Shown here one piece after another: positions 3 through 22,417 of a DNA stretch of 22,482 nucleotides. The stretch spans positions 1-22,482 of IMG/VR virus record IMGVR_UViG_3300044647_000226; one strand, written 5' to 3'. A program made the translations under genes and the position numbers. Under the pieces are notes generated by a model. The model saw only the letters and a list, made by a program, of their open reading frames with translations. It did no database searches and was not told the DNA's origin. How positions within the stretch are numbered: position 1 is the first letter of the stretch; every line of letters begins with the position of its first letter. Source of the DNA: a virus.

Positions 3-1796
3 GAGACATATTATTCCCGTGAGTTCAGCCTAACAAAAGTTACCACTGAGGAATACATTCGTAGCCCTGAGTTCGAAACTATTGGCGTAGCCGTACAGGT
101 CAACGATGGTGAGCCGGAATGGTTTAGCGGGGATGGCGAAGCCATGCACCAGTTCCTGACTAAATTTGATTGGGGGAATTCCCTAGCCCTTGCGCACAAC
201 GCCCCGTTCGATGGCGCAATTTTGAAGTGGGTCTACGGACTCAGCCCCAAAGGTTGGCTTGATACTTTATCCATGGGCAGAGCTTTGCATGGCACTAACG
301 TAGGCGGTAGCTTGAAGGTGCTGTCAAACTATTACGGCCTTGGTGAGAAAGGCATAGAGGTAGAAAACGCATTAGGTCTGCGGCGTCAGGACTTCAGCCC
401 CGAACAGTTAGAACGATATGGCGACTACTGTAAGAATGACGTTACCCTTACGTGGGAATTGTTTAACGCAATGTCTGCTGGCTTCCCCGCTATTGAGTTG
501 CGCCTGATTGATTTGACTGTGCGCATGTTCACCGAACCTGTGTTGCAGTTAGATAGAGAGCTTATCAAAGACCATCTACTTAGTGAGAAACAACGCAAAG
601 AAGACCTACTCGAGAACTTTGACAAAGACGACCTGATGAGCAACATAAAGTTTGCCATTATCTTGGAAGGCTATGGCGTATCACCACCGATGAAAGTCAG
701 CCCCGCAAACGGCAAACAAACCTTTGCTTTCTCTAAAACAGACGAAGAGTTCAAAGCGTTGCTTGAGCATCCAAACCCACAGGTACAAACCTTAGTGGCA
801 GCGAGATTGGGCACTAAGTCTACGATAGAAGAGACAAGGACAGCTAGGTTTCTTGGCATAGCTGAACGTGGCTCATTACCTGTACCCCTACGCTACTATG
901 CGGCACACACGGGTCGATGGGGCGGTGACGATAAATTAAATCTGCAGAACTTACAACGCAACTCACCTCTGAAGCATGCAATCATCCCCCCGGACGGATA
1001 CATGATGATTGATTCGGACTCATCACAAATTGAAGCCCGTACGCTCGCATGGCTTGCGGAACAAGACGACTTAGTAGACGCATTTGATCGGGGTGAAGAT
1101 GTATACAAAATCATGGCAACGGCTATTTATGGCAAGAAGATTTCGGAGATTACAAAGGACGAAAGGTTTGTTGGCAAGACCACTATCCTTGGGTGCGGGT
1201 ACGGGATGGGCGCGGCAAAATTCCAAGCGCAACTTAAGAACTTCAATGTCACGATCGAATTGGATGAAGCGAAACGGATTATTGACACATATCGAACTAC
1301 GTATCCAAAGATTACTGAACTATGGAAGTCTGCGGCGTCAGCCCTCAAAGCCGTACTTCAGAATCAGCAGACAACGTTGGGCCGAGGCGGTATCTTAAAG
1401 ATCGAAGGCAGTGATGGCATTCTATTGCCCAACACCTTGTACCTACGCTATCCCAACCTACGCCTAATAGAGAACGAGGAAGGGAAGTCTGAGCTGGTGT
1501 ACGACACCAAGAAGGGCAAGGCAGTTATACCGACCCGTATCTATGGCGGTAAGGTAATTGAGAACGTGTGCCAAGCGTTAGCCCGTATCGTGATCGGTGA
1601 GCAGATGCTCATGGTTGCGAAGAAGTACCGAGTGGTAATGACTGTACATGACGCCATCGCTTGCATTGTGCCGACTGCGCAAGTTGATACAGCCAAGGAG
1701 TACGTTGAGATGTGTATGCGTACCCGACCCAGTTGGGGCATGGAGCTACCACTTAACTGCGAAGCGGGAGCAGGGGCAAGCTATGGCGACTGTTAA
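3..1796 (+). CDS. polA: Family A DNA polymerase with 3'-5' exonuclease, 5' end cut by window edge
   Basis: This is the phage replicative DNA polymerase. The frame is open from base 3, and its first residues (ETYYS) match the end of the DFETYY exonuclease motif, so the true start lies a few codons to the left. The internal ATG at 144 would remove Exo I and is not the start. Exo II is HNAPFD (195-212) and Exo III is Y-x3-D (426-440). The polymerase domain has motif A, D-S-S-Q-I-E-A-R from 1017; motif B, R-x3-K then LGCGYG (1164-1205); and motif C, VHDA (1644-1655). Two residues are unusual. Leu (codon 1188-1190) stands where E. coli Pol I has Phe762, and Ala replaces the Glu of the usual HDE in motif C. 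No 5'-nuclease domain is visible, as in most phage enzymes. The 597 residues seen suit a compact exo+pol enzyme. The gene heads the replication module and its end overlaps the next small gene. Confidence 0.95.
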   Translation, partial: ETYYSREFSLTKVTTEEYIRSPEFETIGVAVQVNDGEPEWFSGDGEAMHQFLTKFDWGNSLALAHNAPFDGAILKWVYGLSPKGWLDTLSMGRALHGTNVGGSLKVLSNYYGLGEKGIEVENALGLRRQDFSPEQLERYGDYCKNDVTLTWELFNAMSAGFPAIELRLIDLTVRMFTEPVLQLDRELIKDHLLSEKQRKEDLLENFDKDDLMSNIKFAIILEGYGVSPPMKVSPANGKQTFAFSKTDEEFKALLEHPNPQVQTLVAARLGTKSTIEETRTARFLGIAERGSLPVPLRYYAAHTGRWGGDDKLNLQNLQRNSPLKHAIIPPDGYMMIDSDSSQIEARTLAWLAEQDDLVDAFDRGEDVYKIMATAIYGKKISEITKDERFVGKTTILGCGYGMGAAKFQAQLKNFNVTIELDEAKRIIDTYRTTYPKITELWKSAASALKAVLQNQQTTLGRGGILKIEGSDGILLPNTLYLRYPNLRLIENEEGKSELVYDTKKGKAVIPTRIYGGKVIENVCQALARIVIGEQMLMVAKKYRVVMTVHDAIACIVPTAQVDTAKEYVEMCMRTRPSWGMELPLNCEAGAGASYGDC

Positions 1797-1893
1797 CCCT
1801 GTATGGCCTTTTCCACCATTCCCAAACCCCAAGGACAGGGGCAACCGAGTCCCCAAGTTCAACCCTGATAACCACGAGGATGCACCACTATGA
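1783..1893 (+). CDS. Proline-rich microprotein, 36 residues
   Basis: This small open frame begins inside the polymerase 3' end, in another frame. It has an AGGGG ribosome-binding site six bases before its ATG, and its stop overlaps the start of the next gene as ATGA (1890-1893). The product is rich in Pro, Asn and Trp/Phe near its N-terminus (WPFPPFPNP), with a basic middle and an acidic end. I do not recognise the family. The case for it being real rests on the ribosome-binding site and on tight coupling to both neighbours. It could instead be a translational bridge whose peptide does not matter. A role next to the polymerase, such as an accessory factor, would be guesswork. Confidence 0.55.
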   Translation: MATVNPVWPFPPFPNPKDRGNRVPKFNPDNHEDAPL

Positions 1894-2048
1894 ACGACGA
1901 TGACGATATTCAAGAATACGTAAATCCAAACAAGCAGCGAAACGATGTGTTGGAAGAGGTAGCCAAAGAGATCGAGAAGATGAAAGCCTTTGAGAAAGAC
2001 ACAATGGCAAGCTTTGCGGCATACATACGGAGCATGAAGCGTGATTAA
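1890..2048 (+). CDS. Small acidic/helical hypothetical protein, 52 residues
   Basis: The ATG at 1890 overlaps the stop of the preceding microprotein, with GAGGA nine bases upstream. The protein starts with an acidic patch (MNDDDD), then a Lys/Glu-rich stretch with heptad-like spacing (roughly residues 20-37), then a short basic end (RSMKRD). This suggests one amphipathic helix. There are no Cys residues, membrane segments or catalytic motifs. Its stop (2046-2048) overlaps the GTG start of the next gene by eight bases. The family is not recognised; it is called a gene on start signal, coupling and coding-like composition. Confidence 0.65.
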   Translation: MNDDDDIQEYVNPNKQRNDVLEEVAKEIEKMKAFEKDTMASFAAYIRSMKRD

Positions 2049-2277
2049 GTACGACGGATACGACGAGGCAATCATTGGGCCCGCAAGCATTTGGCGTGAC
2101 AGTACTATGGTATCCGTATTGGTTTACGACGCCGAGAAGATACGAGAAGTCCTGATGCGGGATGGTATGGATGCCGAGGAAGCTCGGGAGTTTATTGAGT
2201 TCAACATTGAAGGCGGCTACCTAGGGATTGAAACCCCTGTGCTAGTTTGGCCTAACGATATATGGGATGAAGAATGA
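2041..2277 (+). CDS. Conserved small phage protein of unknown function, 78 residues (GTG start)
   Basis: I choose the GTG at 2041 because GGAG lies eight bases upstream (2029-2032), and because the N-terminal stretch KYDGYDEAIIG looks like a motif I recall at the front of similar small phage proteins. The later ATG at 2107 would delete it. The rest is an alternating acidic helix/strand pattern (EEAREFIEFNIEGGYLG) and an acidic C-terminus, with no Cys, membrane span or catalytic signature. The stop overlaps the following nuclease gene as ATGA. Position between polymerase and nucleases suggests a replication or recombination accessory role, but that is only context. Confidence 0.8.
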   Translation: MIKYDGYDEAIIGPASIWRDSTMVSVLVYDAEKIREVLMRDGMDAEEAREFIEFNIEGGYLGIETPVLVWPNDIWDEE

Positions 2278-2918
2278 ATCAAATTAAAGCAATCGAAACT
2301 ACGTACAAGGGCTACCGCTTTCGCTCAAGGTTGGAAGCACGATGGGCTGTGTTCTTTGATACCATGGGTATAGAGTGGAAGTACGAAGACCAAGGCTACG
2401 AAAAGGAAATCTTTGCGAACGGCAAAACCGAAACCTTGCGCTACCTACCCGACTTCTTTTTGCCTAACCGCTATGGCACAGGTGTGTTTGTAGAGGTCAA
2501 AGGTGACAAGCAAGCGTTAGTAAAAGAACAACGAAAGTACACAGATCTTTTAGATTTTGGTAGCGTACTGCCGTATTTTGATGACTCAGGTGATGCAGGG
2601 ATGCACGAACCTACACGTGGTTTGATCTTACTCGGTGATACACCTTTAGCCACAAAAGGAAAAACATTCTTTCATCCAATCGTCCAACACCACAAGGGCT
2701 TGGTCAGAAAGTGGGTGTACTTTACCCCTATGGGGGCAGTTGTAGCGCAACCTAATGAGTTGAGTACGTTATTAAACTTAGATGCAGATTGGAACATGTC
2801 GGGTGACGATTGGCTAGTTGAAATACGCGAGCTAACTACACCGCAGTTTTACCCAAAGGTTTATGATGCCTATGCCGCCGCACGTAGCGCTCGGTTTGAA
2901 CATGGAGAAAGAGGATGA
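2274..2918 (+). CDS. PD-(D/E)XK-type nuclease, TnsA/Vsr-like
   Basis: This is a predicted metal-dependent DNA endonuclease of the restriction-endonuclease-like fold, 214 residues. An N-terminal helix with F-R-S-R-L-E-A-R-W-A (residues 16-25) supplies a conserved Glu at 21. The core follows as LPDFFLP with Asp60, and FVEVKGDK with Glu74 and Lys76, which is the PD...ExK catalytic set. This arrangement (helix with Glu, then D and ExK) is shared by many small phage proteins with TnsA- or Vsr-like nuclease cores. The C-terminal 120 residues are not recognised and may bind DNA or a partner. The gene is coupled on both sides by ATGA overlaps, linking it to the next nuclease. Likely roles are recombination, Holliday/flap processing or host DNA degradation; sequence alone does not decide. 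Confidence 0.75.
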   Translation: MNQIKAIETTYKGYRFRSRLEARWAVFFDTMGIEWKYEDQGYEKEIFANGKTETLRYLPDFFLPNRYGTGVFVEVKGDKQALVKEQRKYTDLLDFGSVLPYFDDSGDAGMHEPTRGLILLGDTPLATKGKTFFHPIVQHHKGLVRKWVYFTPMGAVVAQPNELSTLLNLDADWNMSGDDWLVEIRELTTPQFYPKVYDAYAAARSARFEHGERG

Positions 2919-3577
2919 GTATTGTTTGGTCATTCAGTAGCCTGAAAACATTTCAGCAGTGCCCTAAGAAGTACTACCATACTAAGATAGCCAAGGACAT
3001 TGTTGAGCCGGACACACAGGCAACACTGTATGGAAAGACAGCTCATACTGTAGCGGAAGAATATATTAGAGATGGGGTGCCGATCCCTGAACAGTTTGCG
3101 TATATGCAAGCTACCTTAGATACCTTAAAGGACATCCCCGGAGAAAAGTTATGCGAAGTAAAACTTGGGTTGACGAAGAACTTAGAGTCGTGCGACTTCG
3201 ATGCTCCGAATGTATGGTGGCATGGGGTAGCGGATTTGGTGATTATCAATCGGACTACGGGGACGGCACACTCCATAGACTACAAGACGAGCAAGAGTGC
3301 GAGATATGCGGACGTGAAGCAACTCGATCTTGTCGCCTGTGGGTTATTCGCCAAGTTTCCGGAGATCAAGAGGGTAAAGTCGGCTCTCTTGTTTGTAGTC
3401 AGCAAGGAATTCGTGAAGGCTACGCACTATTCAGAAATGGTAGAGAAATACATTGAGAAGTCCGCCCAAGACGTTGCAAGAATTGAAGCGGCGTTAGAAA
3501 ATGGGGTATGGAATCCAATCCAAGGCCCACTGTGCAAGTTCTGCTCGGTGAGAGAATGTGAATACAACAGGAACTAA
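2915..3577 (+). CDS. Cas4/AddB/RecB-like PD-(D/E)XK nuclease with Fe-S cluster cysteines
   Basis: The opening W-S-F-S-S-L-K-T-F-Q-Q-C-P-K-K-Y is the hallmark of RecB/AddB/Cas4 family nucleases. Visible motifs are Cys16, His44 in GKTAH, Asp107 in GVADLV, Asp122-Tyr-Lys124 (the DxK core), and a C-terminal C-x2-C-x4-C (Cys207, 210, 215). One N-terminal plus three C-terminal cysteines is the 4Fe-4S arrangement known in Cas4 and AddB, which stabilises the nuclease domain. At 220 residues it has Cas4 size, with no helicase attached. In phages such proteins resect DNA ends for recombination. Its place just ahead of an SNF2 helicase and near a Gam-like protein fits that. No CRISPR array or cas1/cas2 is present, so a CRISPR role is not suggested here. 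Confidence 0.88.
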   Translation: MSIVWSFSSLKTFQQCPKKYYHTKIAKDIVEPDTQATLYGKTAHTVAEEYIRDGVPIPEQFAYMQATLDTLKDIPGEKLCEVKLGLTKNLESCDFDAPNVWWHGVADLVIINRTTGTAHSIDYKTSKSARYADVKQLDLVACGLFAKFPEIKRVKSALLFVVSKEFVKATHYSEMVEKYIEKSAQDVARIEAALENGVWNPIQGPLCKFCSVRECEYNRN

Positions 3578-10059: not shown

Positions 10060-10088
10060 ATCCCCGGCTAATCACTGGGGATTTTTTT
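10060..10088 (+). terminator. Intrinsic terminator ending the plus-strand module
   Basis: ATCCCC (10060-10065) pairs with GGGGAT (10077-10082) across an 11-base loop, and a run of seven T (10082-10088) follows. It works only for plus-strand transcripts; the minus-strand reading has no U-tract after the stem. It overlaps the last codons and stop of the convergent 2213-codon gene, so the two modules share this 3' boundary. Confidence 0.85.
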
Positions 10089-13000
10089 CGGCCTTTCGCC
10101 TAGCCGCCATCTCTTCGGCCCGTTTGTCTAAACGGTCTTCAAGCGTATTTACAGCCTCTTCAACTAATCCAATATTTTTCTTGGTGACGGCTACACCAGC
10201 ACGAGCACCTTCGCGTTGTTTGGCTTTTTCCCTTAGCGAATTCTTAATGCTGTTGCCATCTAACTTATACGTTGGATGCTTGATGTTAAATTTAATTACT
10301 TCATTTTCTAAAATGTTGTTGAATTCTTCAGCGCCCTTGTCCGTATCTTTACGAAGCTGGAAATCCAATTTGTTTAGAATCATATTGCGTTGGTTAACAA
10401 TTCTTTGCTCAATGCCGGTTAACTTAAATGCTGGCCCTTGAGTAGCTGCAAGAATGTCAGGACGGAAACCAATTGCTTGACCAAGCAGCTCGCCCTTCTT
10501 TACGTCATCTTTGCTAACTAATTCTTTACCACGTGGGGTCTTCATGCCTTCGTCTGCATATTTGTTAGCAACCACAAGATTACGTACGGCAGCGGGAAGC
10601 ATCTTTTCTAACATCTTCTGATAGTCACCCATTGCGTAAGCATCGTAGGCGTCGGCAAAACCAAGCAGTAAACTTGCAGTTGGGCCACCAAAGTGATCCA
10701 GCATAAATGCAATTGCGCTTTCGCGAGAAGTCTTAGTCTCTTTACTATCACGGCCCCACAGATCATTCAAACCAATACGAGAGCCAATGTCGTAGCCTGT
10801 GATTGCATTCAATGGGCCACGGTCAACAATGTCACTTACAGGTACGCCACCAATCGTAACGTCACCTAGCTTCTCAGGCAAGAACACAGTGCGGAACCAA
10901 GTCTCAAAGTCTAGGTTTTTAAGTTCTTCAGGCCAATCATCGTCAAGCTCTAATTGACCCCAAGCCCAACCAACAAGTCCCATAATGGGACTAAACAAAG
11001 CCATGTTTGCCGCGCCAGCGAGCAAGAACGATGTGCCCATCATGCCGAAGAACTTAGTAGCTGCTTCCTTTTTGCCCTCTTTATTAAGGAAGGGGAGCAT
11101 CTTCTTAAAGTTAGTTAACAACAGCAGAGACATCTGCAGTGGGTACGTCTTAAACTGGAACGCAATCTTGCCAATACCCTGTTGCATAAAACGTGGGCGA
11201 TTAGTAATGTCGTAATTACCAAGCGCTTCGTTAGTAGAGTCAACTGCTTTTTGAACAGCGTCATCGTAGCTAAGCCCTTGCTTCTTACCCAGCCTATACG
11301 CAGCTAGGTAGACGGCCTCACGACTCAAACGTTCTGTGTTGTGCATCAGAGCGCCGACCATCAGGTTTGCAATACGCTTGCCTTTTCCCTTGATACCTTC
11401 AAACTGCTCGGTGGACATGCTCTTGTAGCCCCACACTAAAGAAGCGTAAGTAGACTCAGACACACCACGGGCTGTCATTTCACTGACGGCTTTGCGTTCA
11501 TCTTCAGGAATAGATTTACTGTTAGCAATACTTGGCGCAGTGATAGAAGTTGTGCCGTCTGCGTTAGTGCGGAATACACTGTACTGATTGACCAAGGTGG
11601 TCATTTTTGCAAGCTCAGTAGCCGCGCCTGTAGCGTTGTTGTAATTACCGGCAAGTACGGGCAAGCCAGAAATGAATACGCTAGAAGGCTGAATCAAAGC
11701 CGACGCAGCGGAAGACAAGTACCAGAAGTAAGACGCCTTGTTTGCGATTCCAGCAACAGACTCACTTAAAGAACCATGATCGCCAGACAACGCCATGTCA
11801 ATACGCTTCTCAGCTTCTTGCACAAACGGTGATAACTCTTCACGTTCGTTGATTGAATCACGTGCAGCCGACAATGAAAGGCGAAGCTTAGGCGCGTACT
11901 TCAAACGTGCCAACTGAATGGATTGCTTAGAAGCAGTAGTGGCAATGTTGCGCTGCAAGTCTGTGCTGAAACCACCACGCCCTTTACGATGAGTGAACTG
12001 CCTGCGGAATGACTGCTCCGGCATCGTGGTCAAATAGATTTGGTAGACCGCATCCTTTAAACCTTCTTTAGCCGAAGGAGAGCCCAAGTCTTTGGCGTCG
12101 ATTGCTTCAAAGATTTTCTTAAGCATCTCGCTTGAGTTCTGTGATGCGGCACGTAGTGTCTTAAGGTCGTTACCTTGCACGAACTCTTGACGGAACAGCA
12201 CGTCTTCGTAGTCTTCTCCACGCTTTGCGGCTAACTCTTTAGCCTTAGCATTACGCTCCGCACGGCTTTCAAACAAATAGAACAAGCGGTTTTCGCCTGA
12301 ACCAATTGCTAACCAATAGTCACCACGACGCACCAATGGGAAGAAAGGTTTGATCCTTGCATCAGCCTCAAAGGTCTTGCGTATGAGAGCCATCAAGTTT
12401 TTCTTCTCTTCAGGAGCCATACCCTGAATACCATTGATCTGCTCGTCTAACAAATCGGAGTACAACTCAATGACTGACTCGTAGTAATCCCGCAATTGCT
12501 TGTACATGCGCTGACCGACAGGGCCAAGTGCTTTGTAGTCGGCGGCAAGAGTTGTTGTTTTTGGCGCAGGCTTAGCACCCTTTTTAGTTTTCTTCTCTTT
12601 ACGCTCTACTTCTACTTCACGTGCATTTGGGTCAGATGGGTCAACCTCTGCCAACGTAGTGGCGTATATAAAGTCTGAAAACTTCTCACGGCTAAGCTTA
12701 GGGTCTTCTTTGAAACCACGGTTGAGCGAACCAATGACTTGTTCGGCACCAGCTAAGAACTGCTGAGACATACCTAACATGCGTTGTAGCTGCGTATTTG
12801 TTTCGCTAAGCGCAGAGATACCCACATCAGCGGCCCACTTAGCCAAAAAGTCAAACGTGGGTAAGCGCACTGAAGCTTGTAGTTTGAGGTACCCCATATC
12901 ATCAACTGCGTTGGCTAGAATTTGCCGAACAGCTTTAGGGTCACGTGCCGTCTGCATCAGACTTACATTCTTAGCCTCCTCGCCTTCGCGGGACAAACGT

Positions 13001-16000
13001 ACTTTTTCTTTTGCAATCTTTACGTCTTTAGCAAGCTGGAGGGCGGAACGTTTTGCTTTTAGGTCAGCCTCTTCGTCAAACTCGGGAGGAGTGAACTTAC
13101 CCTTTTGCTGGAGTGCGCCACCTTTTGTATCAACTTTAGTTAGCCTTGTGCCGAGCATCTTGTCAGTAATATCGACCAGATCAGTAAACGCAGTTGCATC
13201 TCCGGCCTTAACACCAAACAAGTCGCGGATGCTATCGACAAAACCAGAGAAGCCTGTGCCCCGTTTACCTTGCACGCTCATCAAGAACTTCTGGAACTCA
13301 GGGCTAGACATGCCGTAAGCCAAGAACTCATGGGGATCGGAGAACACACCGATAGATACTTTGCCCGTTCTGTCGCGGTCAGTAGTGCCTTCAATCATTT
13401 GTTGCACTTCTGGGGATAGTTCGCCAAACAGCACGCCTTCTTCATACGCTTCTTGCGTACGTTTCATCAGGCTTTCCATTTCGCGCATAAACTTCTGCAA
13501 GCTGGCGTTCTTAAAGCCTTTTAATAGACCTGCTTCAATACGACTAGCCGTTGCTGCATGCAGCAATTCGTGCAACACTGTTATAACGTTTATGCCTTGT
13601 TGGTCTCCGAAGCTACTACCACGCACGTAGATAGTACGTTCTTTAGACCCGGGCGTATACACAAACAAACCACGCGCACCGCTTAGCTGAGGCGGTACTG
13701 GATCACCCTTCTCAACCACCACAAACTTAACACCAATTACAAAGTTGCGTATGCGTTGCGCCACAAACCGCTGGAATAGATTACCAGTCTTAATGATGTG
13801 CGCAATAGCTTGTGAGCCGTTAGTCAGATTGCTAAACCCTGTGTCGGGCTTGGCTACCCTTGCTTCAGAAGAACGCAAACCTTTGGGTATGTCTTTTGGA
13901 TCAATCTCGTCCTCAAGCATTTGCTGGGCACGCTCACGTGCGGCTTTAGGCACATTTGGGTCAACTGCGGCATCACTAATGTACAGTGCTGCGTTTCTAG
14001 CTTCTTTGTCATTCGTAGTTGAGTTGTACGTTTCAAGCGCTGATTCCAACCTATTAATTTCGTCACGCGCTTCTTGATCTACCTCAGTAGTACCATCTTT
14101 TGACGGAGCTTTAGGTGGTCGGCCTCGCCCCGTAGACTTAAGTGCTGCATCTAGCTTCTCTTGATTTTTAGCAATTAGTGCAGCATCGCCTTTATCTTTA
14201 GATCTTGCCAAATTAACAGCCGCAATAGCTTGCTTCTTGTTCTTGTAAGTTGCAGTTACTTCGCCATCTGTAACATGGTCAAACCCACCTTCGGAATTTT
14301 CTGTAACTACGTGGCGTTGCTGAACAGGTGGCCGACCACGTTTGCCTTTGCTTACTGCTCCGGCTGGTGGTGCTTCTTGTCCTTCTTGCGTTGTTTCGAT
14401 GGTTTCAGAGGTTTCAGGGCCACTTATGTTTCCTTCTTGGCGTTGGGTTATTTCTGTTTTTACAAGGTTGTATTCAGCATCACTAAGACTAGTGTTAGTA
14501 AGTTCTGTATCAAGCTGCTCGTCTGATAACGCACGAATAGTATCGGGTGTAACTGCCCCACGAGTTAACGCAAAGGGCTGTGGTTTTGTTTCTGCAGGTG
14601 TTTCTTTTGACGTTCCTCTAGCGGCGTCAAGTTCGTCAAGTTGTTTAATAATGGCGTCAAATTTAGCTGAAGCCTCTTTACGCTTGGCTTCTAAAGCCTT
14701 TACAGCTTCGTATTTTTTGTCTGAGTCGTATTTACCGTTTTCATCAAGAACCAACGGCTTGCCGTCGTCGCCTAGAACGTCTGCTGCGCGAACACTATCT
14801 AAGTCAAGTAGTTTGTCTAGTAGAACCGAGCTCTCTTCGCTTACTGCATCGAGTTGTTTAGTAAGCTCATCTCGTTTTTCAAAATACGCTACCGTGTCTG
14901 ATATGCCTTTGTCTTTTTCTTCGTCCGTTAATGCAGCCTGCTGTGCTCCTTCTCCAGTAGTAGCTCCTGCAGTAGTCTGTCCAGCAGGAACCACTCCACT
15001 TGTGTCAACTCCAGCAGTTCCTCCGGCGGGGAGTTCTGGACTGGGCTGTTCAGCCACGCTAACGCTTTCTCCACTTGGAGTACTGATAGGTTCAGCAACA
15101 TCTGCTGTTCCTCCTGTTTCGTTCTGCGCAAGCTCATCTGCTTGTGCCTCCTGTTGGGCTAAGTTCTGGGCGTCAATCTTTGCCTGTTGTGGTGGAACCC
15201 CAACCGCAATCAGTTCTTGTGCAATCTGTTCAACACGACCTTCAGGTATCTTAATAGCGATAGTCTTAGCTTCAGCCTTTAACTGTGCATCAACTTTACG
15301 CGCAGCAATATTCCCAGCGTTTTCTGCGGGGATACCTTGTTGGATATAAACTTTGGTAAGCGCATCAATTCTGTCGGCACGAACTTTCTCGGGGGTTTCC
15401 GCAGGTGCTTCTTCTTTTTTCTCCGCCGCAAGTTCAGCGTTGATTGTGGCTTGTTGTTCAGCCATCTTAGCATCACGCAAGTTAGAGCGTGCTTCAATGG
15501 GAGCAGTAACACCTTCCGCTATGGCTTCAAGTAACACGTCGGCGGGTTTGTCTTCACCTGTAGCTTTTTGTGCGGCAAGTTCACCACCTGCACCACCACC
15601 CATTTGTAAAGCAAGCTCTTTACCCCACGCCGCCATCGTAGCTTTTTTAGCCGCAGTACCAGCGAGTTTGCCTTCAGCAATAAGAGCCTGTGCAGGCTTC
15701 AAGAATCTACCAGCTATGCCCATAGACAAAGCATCAAACGTGCCAATAATTAGACCACGCTTAGCGCCCTTTTCTTTGATCTCGTCCATGATCTTGGGGT
15801 TAGACAAGGCTCTGGATATTGCGTTTGCGTCCAGCATGTTGACGCCTTTGTCTTGCAAGACATCAGCCATGACCGAGCCGTACTCAATACCGCCAGAACT
15901 AAGACCAGCCGCACCCGAACGAGCCACAACTCCAGCCGGGCCGAGCACCAAAGAAGGCACCATACCGGGCAAAGATACAGCTAGAGACTCCACCAACATT

Positions 16001-16713
16001 GTGAATGTTGCACGTGGGTTAGAAGCCAGAGCGGAGATAGCCTCACCGTAAGTTTCGGAGTTGCCGATTTCCATCATACCCGCACGGATATCTTGAGAAG
16101 GGGCAGCGGCTGCTCTCTGTTTTGCGTTGCGTGCCAGTAAACGCCCTGCGGCATCAGCGTCGGCTACGCCTGTCTGGAACAAATAACTTGTAGCTATGTC
16201 CCCTAGGCTTGCGTCTACGCGCTTAAACATATTGCCGGTTGCTTCTGCGGCATATTTTCCGGGGGATTCAGTAAACTTAGTTTCAGGTGTGGCTTTAATT
16301 TCGCCAACGGGTTCAGTCCTAGCGCGAGGTGGCACAGGCGCAGTCATTGGCGCTTGTTGTTTAAAGTAATCGCTACCCCGTTGTTGCCCGTGCTTAATTA
16401 CATCTTCAAACTTAACGCCCATGTTTTCAAGGGACTGTTTTAGTTTTGCTTGGTCAGCGCCTTCTTCAAGGAGGTTGACGGCATCGTCAAGCATTTCAAC
16501 CCGATTTTTATACGGGGCACGTTTAGGTGGCTCAGATACTTTTTCTACTACGGGAGTAGACGAAGCAAGCTTTGGCGCAGTGGCGGCAGGCGCGGAAACG
16601 GGAGCAGGGGGTGCCTCCTGAGTACCAAGGTAACTAAGAATCTTAGCTTTAGCTGCGGATGGATCGTCAGTAGCAATGTCGTATTGCTTACCTTGGTATT
16701 CATAGATGGGCAT
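10072..16713 (-). CDS. Giant polyvalent virion/ejection protein with zincin peptidase motif and AT-hooks
   Basis: The 2213 residues open with MPIYEYQGKQYDI, a small N-terminal module I recall in large phage structural proteins. A Pro/Ala linker and hydrophobic Gly/Ala segments (about 240-275) follow. Then comes a long Ala/Glu/Gln-rich helical region (about 395-760), two AT-hook motifs (RGRP at 792-795 and 863-866), and a zincin-like peptidase segment with HELLH at 1048-1052 and HEFLAYG at 1128-1134 (possible third ligand Glu1129). Farther on are PFFPLVRRGDYWL (about 1455) and an LPD38-like region (GKIAFQFKTYP near 1848) leading into hydrophobic helices (about 1885-1922). This layout fits the 'polyvalent protein' class injected with phage DNA. 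It likely acts in the capsid, then at the host membrane or in the cytoplasm. No RNA polymerase motif of the N4 type was seen. TGAGG at the upstream gene's stop serves as ribosome site. Confidence 0.8.
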   Translation of the reverse strand: MPIYEYQGKQYDIATDDPSAAKAKILSYLGTQEAPPAPVSAPAATAPKLASSTPVVEKVSEPPKRAPYKNRVEMLDDAVNLLEEGADQAKLKQSLENMGVKFEDVIKHGQQRGSDYFKQQAPMTAPVPPRARTEPVGEIKATPETKFTESPGKYAAEATGNMFKRVDASLGDIATSYLFQTGVADADAAGRLLARNAKQRAAAAPSQDIRAGMMEIGNSETYGEAISALASNPRATFTMLVESLAVSLPGMVPSLVLGPAGVVARSGAAGLSSGGIEYGSVMADVLQDKGVNMLDANAISRALSNPKIMDEIKEKGAKRGLIIGTFDALSMGIAGRFLKPAQALIAEGKLAGTAAKKATMAAWGKELALQMGGGAGGELAAQKATGEDKPADVLLEAIAEGVTAPIEARSNLRDAKMAEQQATINAELAAEKKEEAPAETPEKVRADRIDALTKVYIQQGIPAENAGNIAARKVDAQLKAEAKTIAIKIPEGRVEQIAQELIAVGVPPQQAKIDAQNLAQQEAQADELAQNETGGTADVAEPISTPSGESVSVAEQPSPELPAGGTAGVDTSGVVPAGQTTAGATTGEGAQQAALTDEEKDKGISDTVAYFEKRDELTKQLDAVSEESSVLLDKLLDLDSVRAADVLGDDGKPLVLDENGKYDSDKKYEAVKALEAKRKEASAKFDAIIKQLDELDAARGTSKETPAETKPQPFALTRGAVTPDTIRALSDEQLDTELTNTSLSDAEYNLVKTEITQRQEGNISGPETSETIETTQEGQEAPPAGAVSKGKRGRPPVQQRHVVTENSEGGFDHVTDGEVTATYKNKKQAIAAVNLARSKDKGDAALIAKNQEKLDAALKSTGRGRPPKAPSKDGTTEVDQEARDEINRLESALETYNSTTNDKEARNAALYISDAAVDPNVPKAARERAQQMLEDEIDPKDIPKGLRSSEARVAKPDTGFSNLTNGSQAIAHIIKTGNLFQRFVAQRIRNFVIGVKFVVVEKGDPVPPQLSGARGLFVYTPGSKERTIYVRGSSFGDQQGINVITVLHELLHAATASRIEAGLLKGFKNASLQKFMREMESLMKRTQEAYEEGVLFGELSPEVQQMIEGTTDRDRTGKVSIGVFSDPHEFLAYGMSSPEFQKFLMSVQGKRGTGFSGFVDSIRDLFGVKAGDATAFTDLVDITDKMLGTRLTKVDTKGGALQQKGKFTPPEFDEEADLKAKRSALQLAKDVKIAKEKVRLSREGEEAKNVSLMQTARDPKAVRQILANAVDDMGYLKLQASVRLPTFDFLAKWAADVGISALSETNTQLQRMLGMSQQFLAGAEQVIGSLNRGFKEDPKLSREKFSDFIYATTLAEVDPSDPNAREVEVERKEKKTKKGAKPAPKTTTLAADYKALGPVGQRMYKQLRDYYESVIELYSDLLDEQINGIQGMAPEEKKNLMALIRKTFEADARIKPFFPLVRRGDYWLAIGSGENRLFYLFESRAERNAKAKELAAKRGEDYEDVLFRQEFVQGNDLKTLRAASQNSSEMLKKIFEAIDAKDLGSPSAKEGLKDAVYQIYLTTMPEQSFRRQFTHRKGRGGFSTDLQRNIATTASKQSIQLARLKYAPKLRLSLSAARDSINEREELSPFVQEAEKRIDMALSGDHGSLSESVAGIANKASYFWYLSSAASALIQPSSVFISGLPVLAGNYNNATGAATELAKMTTLVNQYSVFRTNADGTTSITAPSIANSKSIPEDERKAVSEMTARGVSESTYASLVWGYKSMSTEQFEGIKGKGKRIANLMVGALMHNTERLSREAVYLAAYRLGKKQGLSYDDAVQKAVDSTNEALGNYDITNRPRFMQQGIGKIAFQFKTYPLQMSLLLLTNFKKMLPFLNKEGKKEAATKFFGMMGTSFLLAGAANMALFSPIMGLVGWAWGQLELDDDWPEELKNLDFETWFRTVFLPEKLGDVTIGGVPVSDIVDRGPLNAITGYDIGSRIGLNDLWGRDSKETKTSRESAIAFMLDHFGGPTASLLLGFADAYDAYAMGDYQKMLEKMLPAAVRNLVVANKYADEGMKTPRGKELVSKDDVKKGELLGQAIGFRPDILAATQGPAFKLTGIEQRIVNQRNMILNKLDFQLRKDTDKGAEEFNNILENEVIKFNIKHPTYKLDGNSIKNSLREKAKQREGARAGVAVTKKNIGLVEEAVNTLEDRLDKRAEEMAARRKAEKNPQ

Positions 16714-16719
16714 TTAAAG

Positions 16720-16724
16720 CCTCA
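16720..16724 (-). promoter_or_regulatory. Ribosome-binding site TGAGG overlapping the upstream stop
   Basis: The TGA stop of the 490-codon gene is itself the start of the TGAGG site, six bases before the ATG at 16713. Ribosomes finishing the upstream gene would stop on the new start site, so the giant protein is probably made by re-initiation. Confidence 0.65.
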
Positions 16725-18194
16725 ATCAAGTTTAATTGGCTTCACAGTAGTACCGGGCGCAGCTTCACCAGCACCGGTAAGTCCTTGTGTTCTTTCATGC
16801 GTAGCACGGAAATCTTTTTCCGCCTCTCTTAATAACCGAGCGGCTTCTTTTGGAGCTTTATCTCTTAGAGCTCTTCTGTATGCCGCACCCTCTGGACTAT
16901 ACAGTTTAAAGTCAGCTATATCTTGTGCTACTGCAGCGTCAACACGTTGTTGTACAGGAGCCACAGCCGCAGCTTGCTTGTTAGGCGCGTTTTCACTTGT
17001 AGAGAACGAGGTTGAAGATTTCATCTTAGCCGCCGCGCTACTTAGTGCATCTAAACGAGCTTTGTTTTCTTTACTTGGATCCATTGCGTATGCTTCTTCC
17101 GCATCAGCCAAACGCTCAGCCAACTTAGCCGCATTAGCACCCTTACCAGAAGTTTTACTATACCCAACAGTACGTGCTGCAATATCTGCGCCGTAACGAA
17201 GCTTATCACCCTTAGCTCTGTTGGCATCTTGTTGGAATTTACGAGCTTCTGCCAAAGCAGCTTGAGCGCCACGGTTATCCCCCATGCGCTCTTTACGTTG
17301 TGCGTCGGCAAGAGCAAAATTCATTTGTTCAATAGCACGTTTTTCTTGCTGTTCGGCGCGTCTTGATTCACCAAGCTGCTGTGCAAATGCTGGCGCTGCT
17401 TCACTTGCGCCTTCAGCTAAATTACGACCTTTTAAAATTTTTCCAGCGGCAGTAAGGTATGCCATACCTTCACCAAATCTTCTGTCACCAGCTAACGCTT
17501 CTCTACGTTTTTTTAATTCTTCTTTAGCAGGAGTGTATATATCTTCCCCTGCATCTCTTTTTGCCCGTGCCATGTACCTGTCAAGAAAAGCTTCTTGCTC
17601 TGTAGCGGTCATTTCTTTAGGCTCAAAATTCATGTAACGTTCAAGCGCTTCTTGCGCTCTACTTATTGCCGTTGAGTCAGCGCCACCCCATCCGGGTTCT
17701 TGTTCAGTACCGTAAGCACGTCGCTTGTCATCCTCAATTGCATCAAGGATTCTTTGTGTGGGGTCTTCTACTTGTTGATTACCAGAGGCTCCGCTAAACG
17801 CAACAATACCGCCCTCGGCGTAGTCTTCTTCGGGTGTGTACATACCAGCTAAACCACCAGAGGCAGCTTGCATAGTAGGTTGTGGCATTGGGGCTCGTTG
17901 TTGCGGAGGCATACCTTGAGGAGCTTGACCCATTGTGCCGGGCACCATTGCGCCTAGACCTTGCATCATAGGGGGAGGAGCCATGTTCTGGGCAACCAAA
18001 GAAGGAGATGAAGTTGGCTGTTGTGCCTTACCCGCCATGTCCAGCATGTCGGCTTCGTTAACCAAACGCAGTGCGTTTAGCGCTGTGTAGGAGTCTAACT
18101 TGGGATCAGGACTTTGACCCATTACCGCAGCACGAAGCATGTCGGGTTGTTTTCTATACCGTGCGGCATAGACAGATGCCATATCAATTGCCAT
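16722..18194 (-). CDS. Putative internal virion protein, coiled-coil, with GG motifs
   Basis: The 490-residue protein has three parts. The N-terminal third is Met/Pro/Gln-rich (about 60-110) and ends in ASGGLAGM (111-118) and EGGIVAF (127-133). The middle (about 140-400) is a long, highly charged helical region rich in Ala, Arg, Glu and Lys, likely coiled coil. The C-terminal part (about 400-490) is also helical and basic. There are no cysteine clusters, enzyme motifs or signal peptide. Its setting between a Gln-rich protein and the giant polyvalent protein, plus composition like other podovirus-type inner-core proteins, suggests an ejection or internal head protein. The GG segments occur in both genes upstream of it as well. 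Function is inferred from context only. Confidence 0.7.
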   Translation of the reverse strand: MAIDMASVYAARYRKQPDMLRAAVMGQSPDPKLDSYTALNALRLVNEADMLDMAGKAQQPTSSPSLVAQNMAPPPMMQGLGAMVPGTMGQAPQGMPPQQRAPMPQPTMQAASGGLAGMYTPEEDYAEGGIVAFSGASGNQQVEDPTQRILDAIEDDKRRAYGTEQEPGWGGADSTAISRAQEALERYMNFEPKEMTATEQEAFLDRYMARAKRDAGEDIYTPAKEELKKRREALAGDRRFGEGMAYLTAAGKILKGRNLAEGASEAAPAFAQQLGESRRAEQQEKRAIEQMNFALADAQRKERMGDNRGAQAALAEARKFQQDANRAKGDKLRYGADIAARTVGYSKTSGKGANAAKLAERLADAEEAYAMDPSKENKARLDALSSAAAKMKSSTSFSTSENAPNKQAAAVAPVQQRVDAAVAQDIADFKLYSPEGAAYRRALRDKAPKEAARLLREAEKDFRATHERTQGLTGAGEAAPGTTVKPIKLD

Positions 18195-18200
18195 GATATT

Positions 18201-18206
18201 TCCTTA
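18201..18206 (-). promoter_or_regulatory. Ribosome-binding site TAAGGA overlapping the upstream stop
   Basis: The TAA stop of the 355-codon gene (18204-18206) forms the first half of TAAGGA, six bases from the ATG at 18194. This is the same design as at the neighbouring junctions. Confidence 0.7.
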
Positions 18207-19271
18207 GACCAAGTTGTTCAAAGCAAGTGCGCCGAGACCGCCGCCGTTAGACATAGCCACACCACCGTTAGCCATACTTCGAGTCAAACCACCTTCTGCG
18301 GAACCAATTAGCTTACTAATACCAGCCGCGCCAAGACCCAACGATGCAATATTCTGTGCTGTGGAAGGGGGAGCTTGATACACAGAAGAACCTGTCTGAG
18401 TCAAAGGTGCGCCACGAATAATGTCGGACATGAAGCCGAGTTGTTTATAAGGATAGTTCTGGTAGTTTAAATAATCCTGATACTTGGTATCAACATCTTT
18501 TTGCATCTGTGCTTGTTGCTGCAGACCGTACTGGTTCTGCAGTGCATTGATGCCCATGTTCTGTTGGTATTGCAGATTACCTAAAGTGCCTAAGTTTTGT
18601 GCAGACTGGTTAGCCGCTTGCAAACCTTGAAGGCCTAGACCCGCACCAAACTGCTGCTGCTGAGCGTTAAGTTGGTTCTGGGTGTTGTACTGACCCATTG
18701 CTTGGTTGTAAGCATTTTGCAAACCAGTAGCCTGAATGTCGCCTTTTTGACGCATTAACGCGGCATTAAGCTGGTTGTTAGCAATAAGATTACCACTTCC
18801 ACCGAAAGCCCCAGAACGCGCTGCTTGCGCATTTTGAGTTTGGCGGGCAATGTCGGCTTGACGCTGGGCATCTTGTTGTTGACGTTCCACTACATTCTGC
18901 ATGTAGGGGTTCATCATGGCGTTGCCGGTCACATTACCTTGCGCGTCTCTAGTAGTAGCACCACTAAATGCTTTATTAAAATCCGCTGGATTAAATGTGT
19001 ACTGTGTATTAAGAGCACCAAGGCCCGCTTGCCCCGCCAAAGCAGTCGCATCCTGTAGTTGTGGCTGAGACTGCATCAAGGCCGCATTTTGGTACGACTG
19101 ATTTTGCAGTGGAGAGAACTGAGCAACACGCTCACCCTGATACTGCATGAACGGATTCATCTCCGTATCGGTCAAAGCCGCAGCCTGACCGAGCATGGTC
19201 TGGGCGTATTCCGCTATTTCTGGTGCAAAGCCGTATTGCGTTTGCTGTACTTGGGTTGGTTGAGTTGCCAT
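18204..19271 (-). CDS. Glutamine-rich putative virion/ejection protein
   Basis: The 355-residue product is extremely rich in Gln, Asn and Ala and nearly free of Cys. An N-terminal motif (PEIAEYAQTML) is followed by NPFMQYQGERVAQFS. Further on come MNPYMQNVVERQQQDA, a basic RSGAFGGSG segment (about 152-160), a long Q/N helical stretch (160-260), and PYKQLGFMSDIIRGAP near 275-290. The C-terminal 35 residues carry three glycine motifs: AEGGL, NGGV and NGGGL. I recall this order (MNPYxxxVV, then A-R-x-G-x-F-G-G-S) in phage proteins encoded beside tail-hub and internal-core genes. It probably assembles in the virion near the portal or is ejected. Translation likely couples to the upstream gene through TAAGGAG at its stop. 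Confidence 0.75.
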   Translation of the reverse strand: MATQPTQVQQTQYGFAPEIAEYAQTMLGQAAALTDTEMNPFMQYQGERVAQFSPLQNQSYQNAALMQSQPQLQDATALAGQAGLGALNTQYTFNPADFNKAFSGATTRDAQGNVTGNAMMNPYMQNVVERQQQDAQRQADIARQTQNAQAARSGAFGGSGNLIANNQLNAALMRQKGDIQATGLQNAYNQAMGQYNTQNQLNAQQQQFGAGLGLQGLQAANQSAQNLGTLGNLQYQQNMGINALQNQYGLQQQAQMQKDVDTKYQDYLNYQNYPYKQLGFMSDIIRGAPLTQTGSSVYQAPPSTAQNIASLGLGAAGISKLIGSAEGGLTRSMANGGVAMSNGGGLGALALNNLV

Positions 19272-19278
19272 TTATTGG

Positions 19279-19285
19279 CTCCTTA
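19279..19285 (-). promoter_or_regulatory. Ribosome-binding site TAAGGAG overlapping the upstream stop
   Basis: The TAA stop of the 1044-codon gene (19283-19285) begins a full-strength TAAGGAG, seven bases before the ATG at 19271. The strong match predicts high output of the Gln-rich protein. Confidence 0.8.
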
Positions 19286-22200
19286 TGCGGGAAGATGTTT
19301 GTCGGCGCGGCTGTTCTTAGCCACTCTACCTTTGCCGACTGTACCTCGGCGAGCTCTTTGGACTCTGTCCATCATTGCGTATAACTTACGTGCACCGGCT
19401 TCAGTTGAGCCGTTACCCAACTCAGACACAATACGTGCAGGAACTACAAATTCCCCGTCGGCGAGTCGTGCAGGGCGCTTGTTACCAATAGTTGCAGGGA
19501 TGGAATCGGATACACCATCACCGGGGCCACGAAGCAACCTGCCGCCATCGGAGTAGCCACCAAGGTCAAACTGACCAGCCATACCGCCACCGGCCATAGC
19601 CATTAGACCACCAGTAGCCATACCACCGCCGCCATCGTAAGAACCGCCAGTATTTGCAGTGTCGTCTGTAGTTGTTGACGCTTTACCGGCTAATTTTGGA
19701 TAACGTTTCTTAGCTTCGGCAAGGCTAATATTAAGAGCTTCGGCAATTTGTGCAAGGGTTACGTTATTGTCTTTTGTCCATTTTTCGTAATCAGACGTAG
19801 CCACATCAGGTAGTTGAGCAGCAATGTCTTTACTAGATAAACCATAGACTTTTTTACCCTCGGCTGTGTAAGACACGGGAATGTAGTCAGGATTATTTTT
19901 GTATTTTTTAGTAACAGGGTCAAACAAAACTTTCTTAGAAGAAATATTAGTAGGCACACCTAAGACCGACTCAGCGTACGGCTTCATTACTTCGCCAGTC
20001 TCTGTAAAAGGAGTAGGTGTGTATTTAGTTTTGCCGGTTAGGTAATCCATAGCCTGCTTAGAACCGCCGGTCAGAGTGTTGTACTTTTCGTCAAACTCTT
20101 CAATTGTCTTAGGTGCGTAGGGGATGTAGCCTAAGCTGCCGCCGCCTTGCGTGTATGCGTTTTTAACTTCGCCCATGCCAGAAAAACCACCATAGGGGCG
20201 ACCGGGAATGTTAGGCGTTACAGTAGTAGTTCCGTCAGCGTTAAATGTCAAATCGCCGGGGTTGTTAATATTGCCGTACGGGTTACGCGTGCCCGCAGGT
20301 GCATTTGTTTGAGAATTTGTATCAAGTACTGTCTGCGTAGTTGTTAGCGCTTTAGGCTTGGTAATTGTGTTGAAGTCAAATCCAGCCTTCTGCCCGGGCT
20401 TAAGTAGCTGAGATGCTTTGAAAAGGTCATTCTCAAGTTTTATATCACTACCTACCAACTCAGCAATGGTTTTACCTGTTTGGCGCAGGACATCCATTTC
20501 AGATAGGCCTTTGGATGTCAACAGTGTTTTAGCGTCTGCAATTTTCTTTGCGGCTGTAGCCGCGGCATCGTCTCTAGCAAAGTTTTTAAACTTGCTGTAA
20601 ATGTCTTCAGCTTTACCAACTGTAGTCATAACGCCGCTATTGGCAGCGTCTTTGTACCACTGTGTTTTGCGGTCAGCGTCAGTTACTTCACGACCAAGCG
20701 TGTTGCGTACCCATTCATCGGCAATAGTTCTCTTGTCAGCAGACTGATACCCGCCGTAATCTTTTGTAGCATCAGCAAGGGACAAATCTTTGAAGATTTC
20801 TTTTGTGCCCTCAGAGCCGAGCAAGCTCTTAGCGCTCTCTTTAAACGATTCGTACATTTCAGCGCCTGTACGGTCGCCGTTCATAATCTGGTTAGTCCAC
20901 CAAGAAAGACCCGCAGGATCTGGATCACGGCCAAGCACGTTGCGGTACACGTTAGTCACCATCTGCTGGGCGTTTTGAGCCGCAACAATCTGGGCGGGGT
21001 CAACGTTAAATTTCGTAGCTGCGGTGGCAATACCTGCCGCGTCTAAGGCGTTATTGGCAATGTAGTCGTTAATGTTTGCGCCAGTGTAGTTATTGTTAAA
21101 CGCGGCTAAGTTAGTGCCGCCCGTAGTAGCGCCTGTAACAACGTTATTACCGCCACCTGTAACATCTACAATATTGTTAGCTGCGGCAAGGTTAGTTAAG
21201 CCGCCTGTGGTGTCTGTAGCCGTAGCTGCACCGCCGCCAGTTTGGTTTGCGCGATAATCGTTTACGTATTGGGTGTAACGATCATTTGGGTTGTCGGCAA
21301 TGTAACGAGTAACCGCACCTTGGAATACGTTACCAAAATCTTCAGGTTTGGCCGCGCCTGTTTGCAACATATTGAGGAAGTGGTTGTACCCACCTTGGTC
21401 AATTTGGCTAGTACCTTCTCCCACTCCTGTGCGACCAATTGTGGCGTATGCGTCTTTAATAACTTGATCGTAGTTTGGTGCCGCGCCACCATCAACAAGA
21501 CTACCATCTTCCCCGTCGTATCTAGGCACACCGCCACGAGCCATGCGAACAACAGGTTCGCTACGTTCAGCAAAATTTAATTGGCCGGGGCTATAGCCGC
21601 CGTCGTTCATACCCATTAAACCGCCATCAGCCGCTTCTTTTACAGGCACTTCATAGTTACCTGTAGGTGTATAGACCTGCTCGTAGGGGTTGTAAGAAAA
21701 TCTACGCATTGCACCGGGGCGAGTTGTAGTCGTTGGCATATTAGACTTAACTGCTTGATCGGCAAGAATAGGAGCAGCCGTATACGCTATGTTCTTAAAG
21801 TTATCTTTGGCAAAACTGCCTAGTGCTTCTGGGCTTTTTGTTGCTGCGTCGAACCCCGCAGAAAATGTTGATCCGGGGTTTGTAAGTGCGGATTTAGTGG
21901 CATCCGCCGCTGCTTGATTTAACACGCCTTGCTGTGTTAAACCTGACCCGTCAAACGAAAACGCACCTTGTGCCATTTCCGTTGCAATTTGATCTGCGCT
22001 TAAAGCCCCCATAGCACCTTGTTGTGCAGCGTCTATACCAGCAGTAGTTAAACTAGCACCTAATCCAGCGCCACCATAAGCACCAAAGCCCGCCATAATG
22101 CCCTTACCTAAATCACCAGTGCGCAAAGTTTGAAGAGCTCCAACAGTCATTGCTGAAGCAAGAGGGGTTGCACCAAGAAAAGCCAAAGACGTGCCCGCAG

Positions 22201-22417
22201 TCAGAGGAGCTAAAGCAAAACCAAGAACAGCAGGGAGTAGTTTATCTAAGAAGCCAGCTTCAGGTAGACCCGTCTCAGGGTTAATAGACAGTGAGCCGCC
22301 ATGCTTCATGGCCAACGCTTGTAGTCCCTGCACTTCACGTGGGGACATGTGGATAAGCATCGAGTCAGGGCCGCGACCCTTGGATGCCATGTGGTCGGCT
22401 AGTACAGCAAGGCTCAT
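19283..22417 (-). CDS. Large DUF4214-containing virion protein
   Basis: This 1044-residue protein is probably a tail-, neck- or core-associated virion component. The N-terminus reads MSLAVLADHMASKGRGPDSM, then a Gly/Ala-rich hydrophobic zone (about 60-140) that could insert in a membrane. Glycine motifs ADGGL (263-267), NDGGY (271-275) and ARGGV (293-297) lie around residues 260-300. Two imperfect Asn/Gly/Thr repeats are near 401 and 431. A DUF4214-type module (NVYRNVLGRDPDPAGLSWW) sits at about 487-530, with a degenerate second copy at about 565-600 (VRNTLGREVTDADR). The C-terminal 120 residues hold more GG motifs (927-958) and then GPGDGVSDSIPATI...LADGEFVVPA, a closing domain I recall in many phage proteins. 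GAGAGG precedes the ATG. The hydrophobic zone and lack of enzyme motifs argue for a structural or ejection role. Confidence 0.75.
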   Translation of the reverse strand: MSLAVLADHMASKGRGPDSMLIHMSPREVQGLQALAMKHGGSLSINPETGLPEAGFLDKLLPAVLGFALAPLTAGTSLAFLGATPLASAMTVGALQTLRTGDLGKGIMAGFGAYGGAGLGASLTTAGIDAAQQGAMGALSADQIATEMAQGAFSFDGSGLTQQGVLNQAAADATKSALTNPGSTFSAGFDAATKSPEALGSFAKDNFKNIAYTAAPILADQAVKSNMPTTTTRPGAMRRFSYNPYEQVYTPTGNYEVPVKEAADGGLMGMNDGGYSPGQLNFAERSEPVVRMARGGVPRYDGEDGSLVDGGAAPNYDQVIKDAYATIGRTGVGEGTSQIDQGGYNHFLNMLQTGAAKPEDFGNVFQGAVTRYIADNPNDRYTQYVNDYRANQTGGGAATATDTTGGLTNLAAANNIVDVTGGGNNVVTGATTGGTNLAAFNNNYTGANINDYIANNALDAAGIATAATKFNVDPAQIVAAQNAQQMVTNVYRNVLGRDPDPAGLSWWTNQIMNGDRTGAEMYESFKESAKSLLGSEGTKEIFKDLSLADATKDYGGYQSADKRTIADEWVRNTLGREVTDADRKTQWYKDAANSGVMTTVGKAEDIYSKFKNFARDDAAATAAKKIADAKTLLTSKGLSEMDVLRQTGKTIAELVGSDIKLENDLFKASQLLKPGQKAGFDFNTITKPKALTTTQTVLDTNSQTNAPAGTRNPYGNINNPGDLTFNADGTTTVTPNIPGRPYGGFSGMGEVKNAYTQGGGSLGYIPYAPKTIEEFDEKYNTLTGGSKQAMDYLTGKTKYTPTPFTETGEVMKPYAESVLGVPTNISSKKVLFDPVTKKYKNNPDYIPVSYTAEGKKVYGLSSKDIAAQLPDVATSDYEKWTKDNNVTLAQIAEALNISLAEAKKRYPKLAGKASTTTDDTANTGGSYDGGGGMATGGLMAMAGGGMAGQFDLGGYSDGGRLLRGPGDGVSDSIPATIGNKRPARLADGEFVVPARIVSELGNGSTEAGARKLYAMMDRVQRARRGTVGKGRVAKNSRADKHLPA

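Follow-up and report, generated by a model that had tools for sequence, protein, structure and literature searches.

In bacteriophage T4, the capsid targeting sequence, a short N-terminal peptide common to otherwise unrelated internal proteins, directs these proteins into the head and is removed by the prohead protease. The C-terminus of tape-measure proteins shows the layout GPGTGxSDSIPAxLSxGEYV. The ejection proteins of phage T7 sit on the portal and exit via its channel, as described in the available part of PMC8954989. In the present study, a short Gly-Gly (GG) element was analysed in the virus record IMGVR_UViG_3300044647_000226 of IMG/VR, the whole of which (22,482 bases, classed as linear and therefore perhaps a fragment) is called the window; the element is carried by the three neighbouring proteins p1044, p355 and p490, whose genes follow one another in this order on the minus strand, with that of p2213 behind them, and together span 22417 to 10072. 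The conserved core of the element is the stricter form [M/Y/F/A]-A-x-G-G-hydrophobic and not every GG-hydrophobic copy. The profile match of p355 to a DNA ejection protein family, which extends across most of the protein, together with the gene order, points to the block being the ejection-protein cassette of a short-tailed phage, and p490, p355 and p1044 are probably injected together with the phage DNA. No Pfam or PHROG match of p490, the third protein of the cassette (slot 3), was found at E 0.1.

Conservation and concentration of the GG element

An earlier note, made from the letters of the window alone, had quoted GG-hydrophobic tetrapeptides in three proteins, all of which exist there: SGGL 112 and EGGI 127 in p490 (positions are those of x); EGGL 326, NGGV 335 and GGGL 343 in p355; and DGGL 264, DGGY 272, RGGV 294, TGGL 404 and 935, and GGGM 930 and 943 in p1044, which also has QGGY 341, YGGY 554, YGGF 742 and LGGY 952, absent from that list. 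The comparison with composition that the same note had proposed was made by counting the copies against 5000 composition shuffles per protein, and enrichment was borne out for p1044 (11 versus 4.07 expected, p = 0.0024) but not for p490 (2 versus 0.60, p = 0.12) or p355 (3 versus 1.08, p = 0.08); p2213 has 4 copies versus 3.74 expected (p = 0.53).

Conservation was assessed in alignments of IMG/VR relatives with the window row included, in which sequences of 300–380 amino acids for p355, 430–560 for p490, 700–1300 for p1044 and 1700–3200 for p2213 were admitted, identical or contained sequences were dropped and positions refer to the first G. Pattern scans supplied 16 of the 38 rows of alignment A1, and the A.GGIVAF..GG columns of alignment A3 were fixed by selection, whereas the 23 rows of the p490 alignment were not picked by motif pattern and are 24–81% identical to the window. 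In this alignment, both GG and GG-hydrophobic are retained in 23/23 rows at 113 and at 128, 10 of the 20 columns that show no variation among the rows fall in residues 111–133, and A126, G128, G129, I130, A132 and F133 are invariant. For p355, GG is present at 336 (MANGG) in 30/31 rows, with a hydrophobic residue following in 20/31, at 344 (GGGL) in 24/31 and at 327 (EGGL) in 2/31. Among the 38 rows of p1044, GG and GG-hydrophobic are kept in 38 and 37 rows at 936 (MATGG), in 35 and 33 at 944, in 35 and 29 at 295, in 28 and 27 at 743 and in 8 and 4 at 931, while the count for GG is 30 rows at 265, 26 at 273, 20 at 953, and 5, 6 and 3 at 342, 405 and 555, respectively. Since conservation differs between the copies, real copies can be told apart from chance copies, and the view that every GG-hydrophobic copy is meaningful was rejected for several that are kept in few aligned rows.

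The strict form, scanned as [MYFA]A.GG[LIVMFYA], occurs twice in p490, once in p355 and four times in p1044, and in none of the others among the 13 window proteins examined, p2213 included. Across seven related records, 38/270 GG of the cassette proteins belong to the strict form, versus 5/669 elsewhere (Fisher 8.5e-17, a value that overstates independence, given that the form derives from the window itself and that the records are related). Genes were greedy open reading frame (ORF) calls rather than annotations, and the records G004, G005, G011 and G013 were covered up to the final 227 to 2,494 bases. Clusters of small proteins in three records were counted apart, with the strict form in 1/9, 2/23 and 3/11 GG (6/43 together). 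In the relative G009, such proteins lie between the major head protein (Phage_capsid_4) and the tail genes and show lysine-rich variants together with an ADGxAxKGKTKGKM-like element. Four small proteins with xGG copies were noted in this relative at L331:8091-9607, three of them with ADGxAxKGKTKGKM-like ends, and one of the four has a 40-residue N-terminus common to virion structural PHROGs.

Spread across viral and cellular sequences

Degenerate DNA scans of IMG/VR were performed with pattern A (AxGGIVAFxxGG) and pattern B (MAxGG-hydrophobic-xxMxxGG), each of which was found in at least 120 viral stretches, and 117 (A) and 119 (B) loci with 117 and 123 matches were analysed, the reading frame being open at the motif in 240/240 matches. 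For pattern A, a p355 homologue lies on the same strand no more than 150 bp from the motif gene in 93/117 loci and forms one ORF with it in 15/117, and a p355 homologue was not found in 9/117, as compared with the presence of such a homologue in 17/119 pattern B loci (Fisher 3.7e-37 for A versus B). Only 25/117 pattern A motif proteins are matched by the p490 model. Positions that the search pattern left free are constrained too: M, Y or F precedes the A in 101/115 cases, and an upstream G[ILVM]x(1,2)[LMQ], 10–20 residues away, is present in 86/115 versus 15.8 in shuffles. Among 28 cluster representatives of pattern B, the commonest distance of a non-selected neighbouring GG is 8 (24/96 within 20 residues), and some matches, such as L217, L237, L238 and L279 among others, look like chance by eye. 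Pattern A gave 21 matches in cellular genomes, of which two (L352 and L355) fit, both being phage-like, with Y before A and a homologue of p355 (8.9e-85) or p490 (1.3e-12) beside the motif; the other 19 have neither M, Y or F before Ala nor a p355 or p490 homologue and look like chance.

The carriers had been described in the earlier note as otherwise unrelated, and no significant mutual match among p490, p355 and p1044 was given by phmmer, although single-linkage clustering of 239 proteins (4 from the window) with the GG neighbourhoods masked yielded 39 clusters, 27 of them singletons, and chained all three together with 126 other proteins into one cluster of 129. An internal Shine-Dalgarno or ribosome site was rejected as an explanation, AGGAGG-like letters being present in only 9/240 matches; the first Gly codon is GGA in 2% and 4%, versus 13% and 20% in the rest of these ORFs.

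Against the phage collection, tblastn of p355 gave no match and tblastn of p1044 gave 4 records, and the p355 profile matches proteins of MinM2 (an isolated cyanophage of Synechococcus), Caulobacter phage RW and Microcystis phage MJing1. In MinM2, scanned minus its first 4,079 bases, 3 strict copies were observed in the cassette proteins; the 16 further genes of that stretch had 0, and the ORFs of the remainder had 2 among 132 GG. Seven genes each were scanned in RW and MJing1, and the p1044-type protein of RW retains MARGGY. The cyanophage records MinM2, Pag-Yong1 and Pra-JY27 are of the same length, and their p355-type proteins are identical, so that they may be one phage.

Probable linkers, reuse and possible roles

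The coordinates of the genes and of the element-bearing stretches are collected in Table 1. The AlphaFold2 models of p490 and p1044 are of limited quality, with a mean predicted local distance difference test (pLDDT) score of 71.5 and 56.7 and a predicted template modelling score of 0.34 and 0.28, respectively, and Foldseek gave no match of either to the PDB at E <= 0.001. In p490, the copies fall in the stretch 59–143 with pLDDT near 40 (mostly <50), between the N-terminal helices and a helical body, and in p1044 they fall in two stretches that flank the mostly confident region 313–670 (pLDDT mostly 60–91 except about 391–450). These models suggest that the element-bearing stretches of p490 and p1044 are probably disordered or flexible linkers. 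The location near termini or between domains given in the earlier note can thus be specified as terminal for p355 and as between modules for the conserved copies of p490 and p1044.

Table 1. Cassette genes, element-bearing stretches and other features of the window
Feature	Window position	Strand	Residues	Remarks
p1044	19283..22417	minus	1044 amino acids	carries DUF4214
p355	18204..19271	minus		DNA ejection protein family; phrog_4287, E 4.3e-10, residues 7-330
p490	16722..18194	minus		third protein of the putative cassette (slot 3)
p2213	10072..16713	minus		LPD39 (PF18858), DarB-like PHROG match
p490 extended element ASGGLAGMYTPEEDYAEGGIVAF	17796..17864	minus	111-133	conserved GG 113 and 128
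p355 C-terminus MANGGVAMSNGGGLGALALNNLV	18207..18275	minus	333-355	GG 336 and 344
p1044 first linker AADGGLMGMNDGGYSPGQLNFAERSEPVVRMARGGVPRY	21518..21634	minus	262-300	GG 265, 273 and 295; 253-312 pLDDT <50
p1044 second linker with MATGGLMAMAGGGMAGQFDLGGYSDGG	19535..19627	minus	931-961	GG 936 and 944; 911-1008 pLDDT <50
p490 N-terminal helical domain	18024..18182	minus	5-57	three helices in AlphaFold2 model
p1044 hypervariable region	20408..21481	minus	313-670	identity to relatives about 0.1-0.3
DUF4214 (PF13946, E 1.2e-9)	20831-20968	minus	p1044 484-529	inside hypervariable region
p1044 C-terminal module	19286..19540	minus	960-1044	58/75 columns invariant across 38 rows fall here
HELLH of p2213	13558-13572	minus	1048-1052	zinc-peptidase-like signature

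Reuse of the element was observed in the slot-3 proteins of the records G011, G012 and G014, which have no phmmer match to the window proteins and none to the p490 model, and which carry MADGGIAGY with a FAQxSEPV(V/L)RM block resembling FAERSEPVVRM of window p1044. The G012 protein matches the p1044 model at E 1.4e-14 (three-sequence search), with the best alignment over the first-linker block, and contains a transglycosylase SLT domain (E 2.8e-13, residues 145–219) just after the element. In the loci L044, L045, L046, L047 and L049, the p355 and p490 models both hit a single ORF, a fused chain with the element near the junction; the p355 ORF of L038 and of L048 is long and gave no p490 match. 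A slot-3 protein with SLT after the element (L337:3320-5617) gave tblastn matches to 164 phage records, mostly over SLT among the matches listed.

Because the element is conserved where its surroundings drift, is concentrated in the cassette and is reused in proteins dissimilar to p490, the idea of a shared tag or assembly signal put forward in the earlier note is tentatively kept, its docking part being conjectural: on the best reading, though with some doubt, the GG element may be a short linear tag for the assembly or loading of exchangeable ejection proteins. Such a tag would have the form [MYF]-A-x-G-G-hydrophobic, often repeated within about 7–15 residues and extended in the p490 slot by an upstream G-[ILVM]-x(1,2)-[LMQ], and would sit in flexible linkers of the cassette proteins. 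Several copies border hypervariable segments, the conservation step beside p490-128 and p1044-295 lying at the 97th percentile of all positions and that beside p1044 936 and 944 at the 99th–100th. A common virion partner, such as the portal, the head interior or another cassette protein, may bind it, so that cassette proteins whose payloads differ widely would be loaded or arranged in the particle; the element would then act like a targeting tag on exchangeable cargo. As ejection-protein genes diverge fast and are hard to recognise, a conserved element adjoining them offers a cassette marker in uncultured phages and a testable handle on the choice of proteins for the particle, and a loading tag, if true, would explain the exchange of payload domains without loss of incorporation.

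Several observations, besides the overstated Fisher value, weigh against such a tag. The strict form is missing from the p355 homologues of MinM2 and RW, with a single doubtful copy in that of MJing1, and neither RW nor MJing1 has it in the slot-3 protein; in G011 and G014, p355 has GGAT at the GG position. Payload domains were recognised in only 5/68 slot-3 proteins (SLT in 4, Peptidase_M15_3 in 1). The commonest short GG spacing is 7 in p355 and 15 in p490, not 8, and the conservation step beside p355-336, p490-113 and p1044-265 lies at the 83rd, 51st and 34th percentile, i.e. at no striking border. Low pLDDT is weak evidence in p1044, where 472/1044 residues are <50, part of the invariant C-terminal module included. 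Codon diversity is low at p490-128 (G 0.26, G 0.83, V 0 and A 0.26 bits, family mean 1.16) and at p355-344 (below the family mean of 1.23 bits), so that recent descent or a DNA-level constraint is possible at these places.

A broader form of the tag, in which [MYF]-A-x-G-G-hydrophobic would be a phage-wide address code for the loading of unrelated ejection, tape-measure and small lysine-rich proteins into the virion, with one conserved structural reader and with new payloads becoming cargo by joining it, is rather doubtful.

Among the other explanations, the one that survives best, although it is unlikely, is a hinge, flexible or membrane-active, that needs no specific partner and whose small-residue segments would allow unfolding through the portal and then refolding or insertion into the host envelope. 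The Gly, Ala and hydrophobic composition between the N-terminal domain and the payload would suit a hinge, for which drift is expected, yet the six p490 residues from A126 to F133 named above are fixed in all rows, and copies also occur in the small proteins between the head and tail genes of three relatives.

A peptidase of phage or host origin might cut the chain at GG, either as the particle is assembled or once ejection has taken place, and so free the payload from its anchor; this reading ranks next, being slightly less likely. It would accord with the probably flexible linkers seen in the models, with the fused p355- and p490-type chains that have the element near the junction, and with the HExxH found in 28/28 aligned p2213 sequences, where no Pfam peptidase match was obtained at E 0.1. 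A p2213 homologue was not found in 4/18 records, some of them perhaps fragments. The large protein at the p2213 position has one HEALH in G013 and one HEVTH in G011, and HExxH is absent from that of G012 (2254 amino acids) and G014 (2855 amino acids), whose cassettes nevertheless bear 7 and 4 strict copies. The peptidase-like domain of p2213, which the earlier note had offered as a possible reader, is thus unlikely as a general one; as a required reader it is weakened by G012 and G014, and it could still act so in the window phage. The retention of the element in these two records, where other peptidases were not searched for, also speaks against cleavage, and the close repeats, even tandem arrays in unrelated small proteins, as well as the conservation on both flanks of GG, exceed the needs of a simple cut. 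The adenovirus-type cleavage consensus is (M/I/L)XGG, and it was rejected on P4, as M-A-x-G-G has Ala there. The double-glycine leader of C39-peptidase substrates is a short N-terminal leader ending in GG, and it was also rejected, no conserved GG-hydrophobic copy of p490, p355 or p1044 being <100 residues from the N-terminus. In a scan of 10 proteins of G009, head and head-protease families were matched by the major head protein.

An inherited joint, i.e. a point of payload exchange that the element merely marks and that is kept by descent or DNA-level recombination, is slightly less probable again. The copies at conservation borders named above, the slot-3 replacements, the fused chains, the p1044 block recurring in a slot-3 protein and the low codon diversity at p490-128 and p355-344 would be expected of a joint. 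Opposed to this, codon diversity at 4-fold sites of the p1044 blocks is near the family mean, GGT and GGC are both common over the 240 pattern matches, and the element recurs in many similarity clusters. Chance composition in Gly- and Ala-rich proteins is highly improbable as an overall explanation, for although the counts of p490 and p355 alone are not significant and several listed copies are unconserved, conservation, cassette concentration and the lack of M, Y or F before Ala in the 19 chance-like cellular matches refute it for the conserved copies, and it stands for p355 EGGL-326 and p1044 QGGY-341, TGGL-404 and YGGY-554.

Comparison with known systems

Open-access literature searches, part of whose results were diluted by unrelated vocabulary, gave no recognised description of the GG element. 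The capsid targeting sequence of T4 is similar in being a short peptide common to dissimilar internal virion proteins, whereas the GG element is internal or C-terminal, Gly-Gly based and often repeated, and is not known to be processed. A T4-type N-terminal position was rejected, since the conserved copies lie at 113 and 128 of 490, at 336 and 344 of 355, and at 265–295 and 936–944 of 1044.

The end module of p1044 has the same layout as the tape-measure C-terminus and is preceded by GG copies, and Caulobacter phage RW has MARGGYAVKGPGTGRSDSIKANLSDGEYV; a scan of 10 representatives showed one, L258, to be clearly a tape-measure protein. Proteins of the p490 and p355 types carry the element too, and these lack the tape-measure module. 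As a separate observation, the C-terminal module of p1044 is nearly invariant, reading GPGDGVSDSIPA...ADGEFVV...GNGSTEAG, and was matched in isolated cyanophage records.

The available part of a report on another podovirus (PMC10386132) holds nothing on the GG element. The ejection genes of T7 and P22, as far as the available part of PMC8954989 describes them, likewise form a block of adjacent, fast-diverging genes, comparable to the window block with its p355 of the DNA ejection protein family, and T7 gp16 has a peptidoglycan-hydrolytic domain, as one slot-3 protein here has a transglycosylase domain. In contrast to T7 and P22, for which no shared GG element is mentioned in that part of the source, the window type carries the element in its putative ejection proteins and adds a fourth protein of 2000–3000 amino acids.

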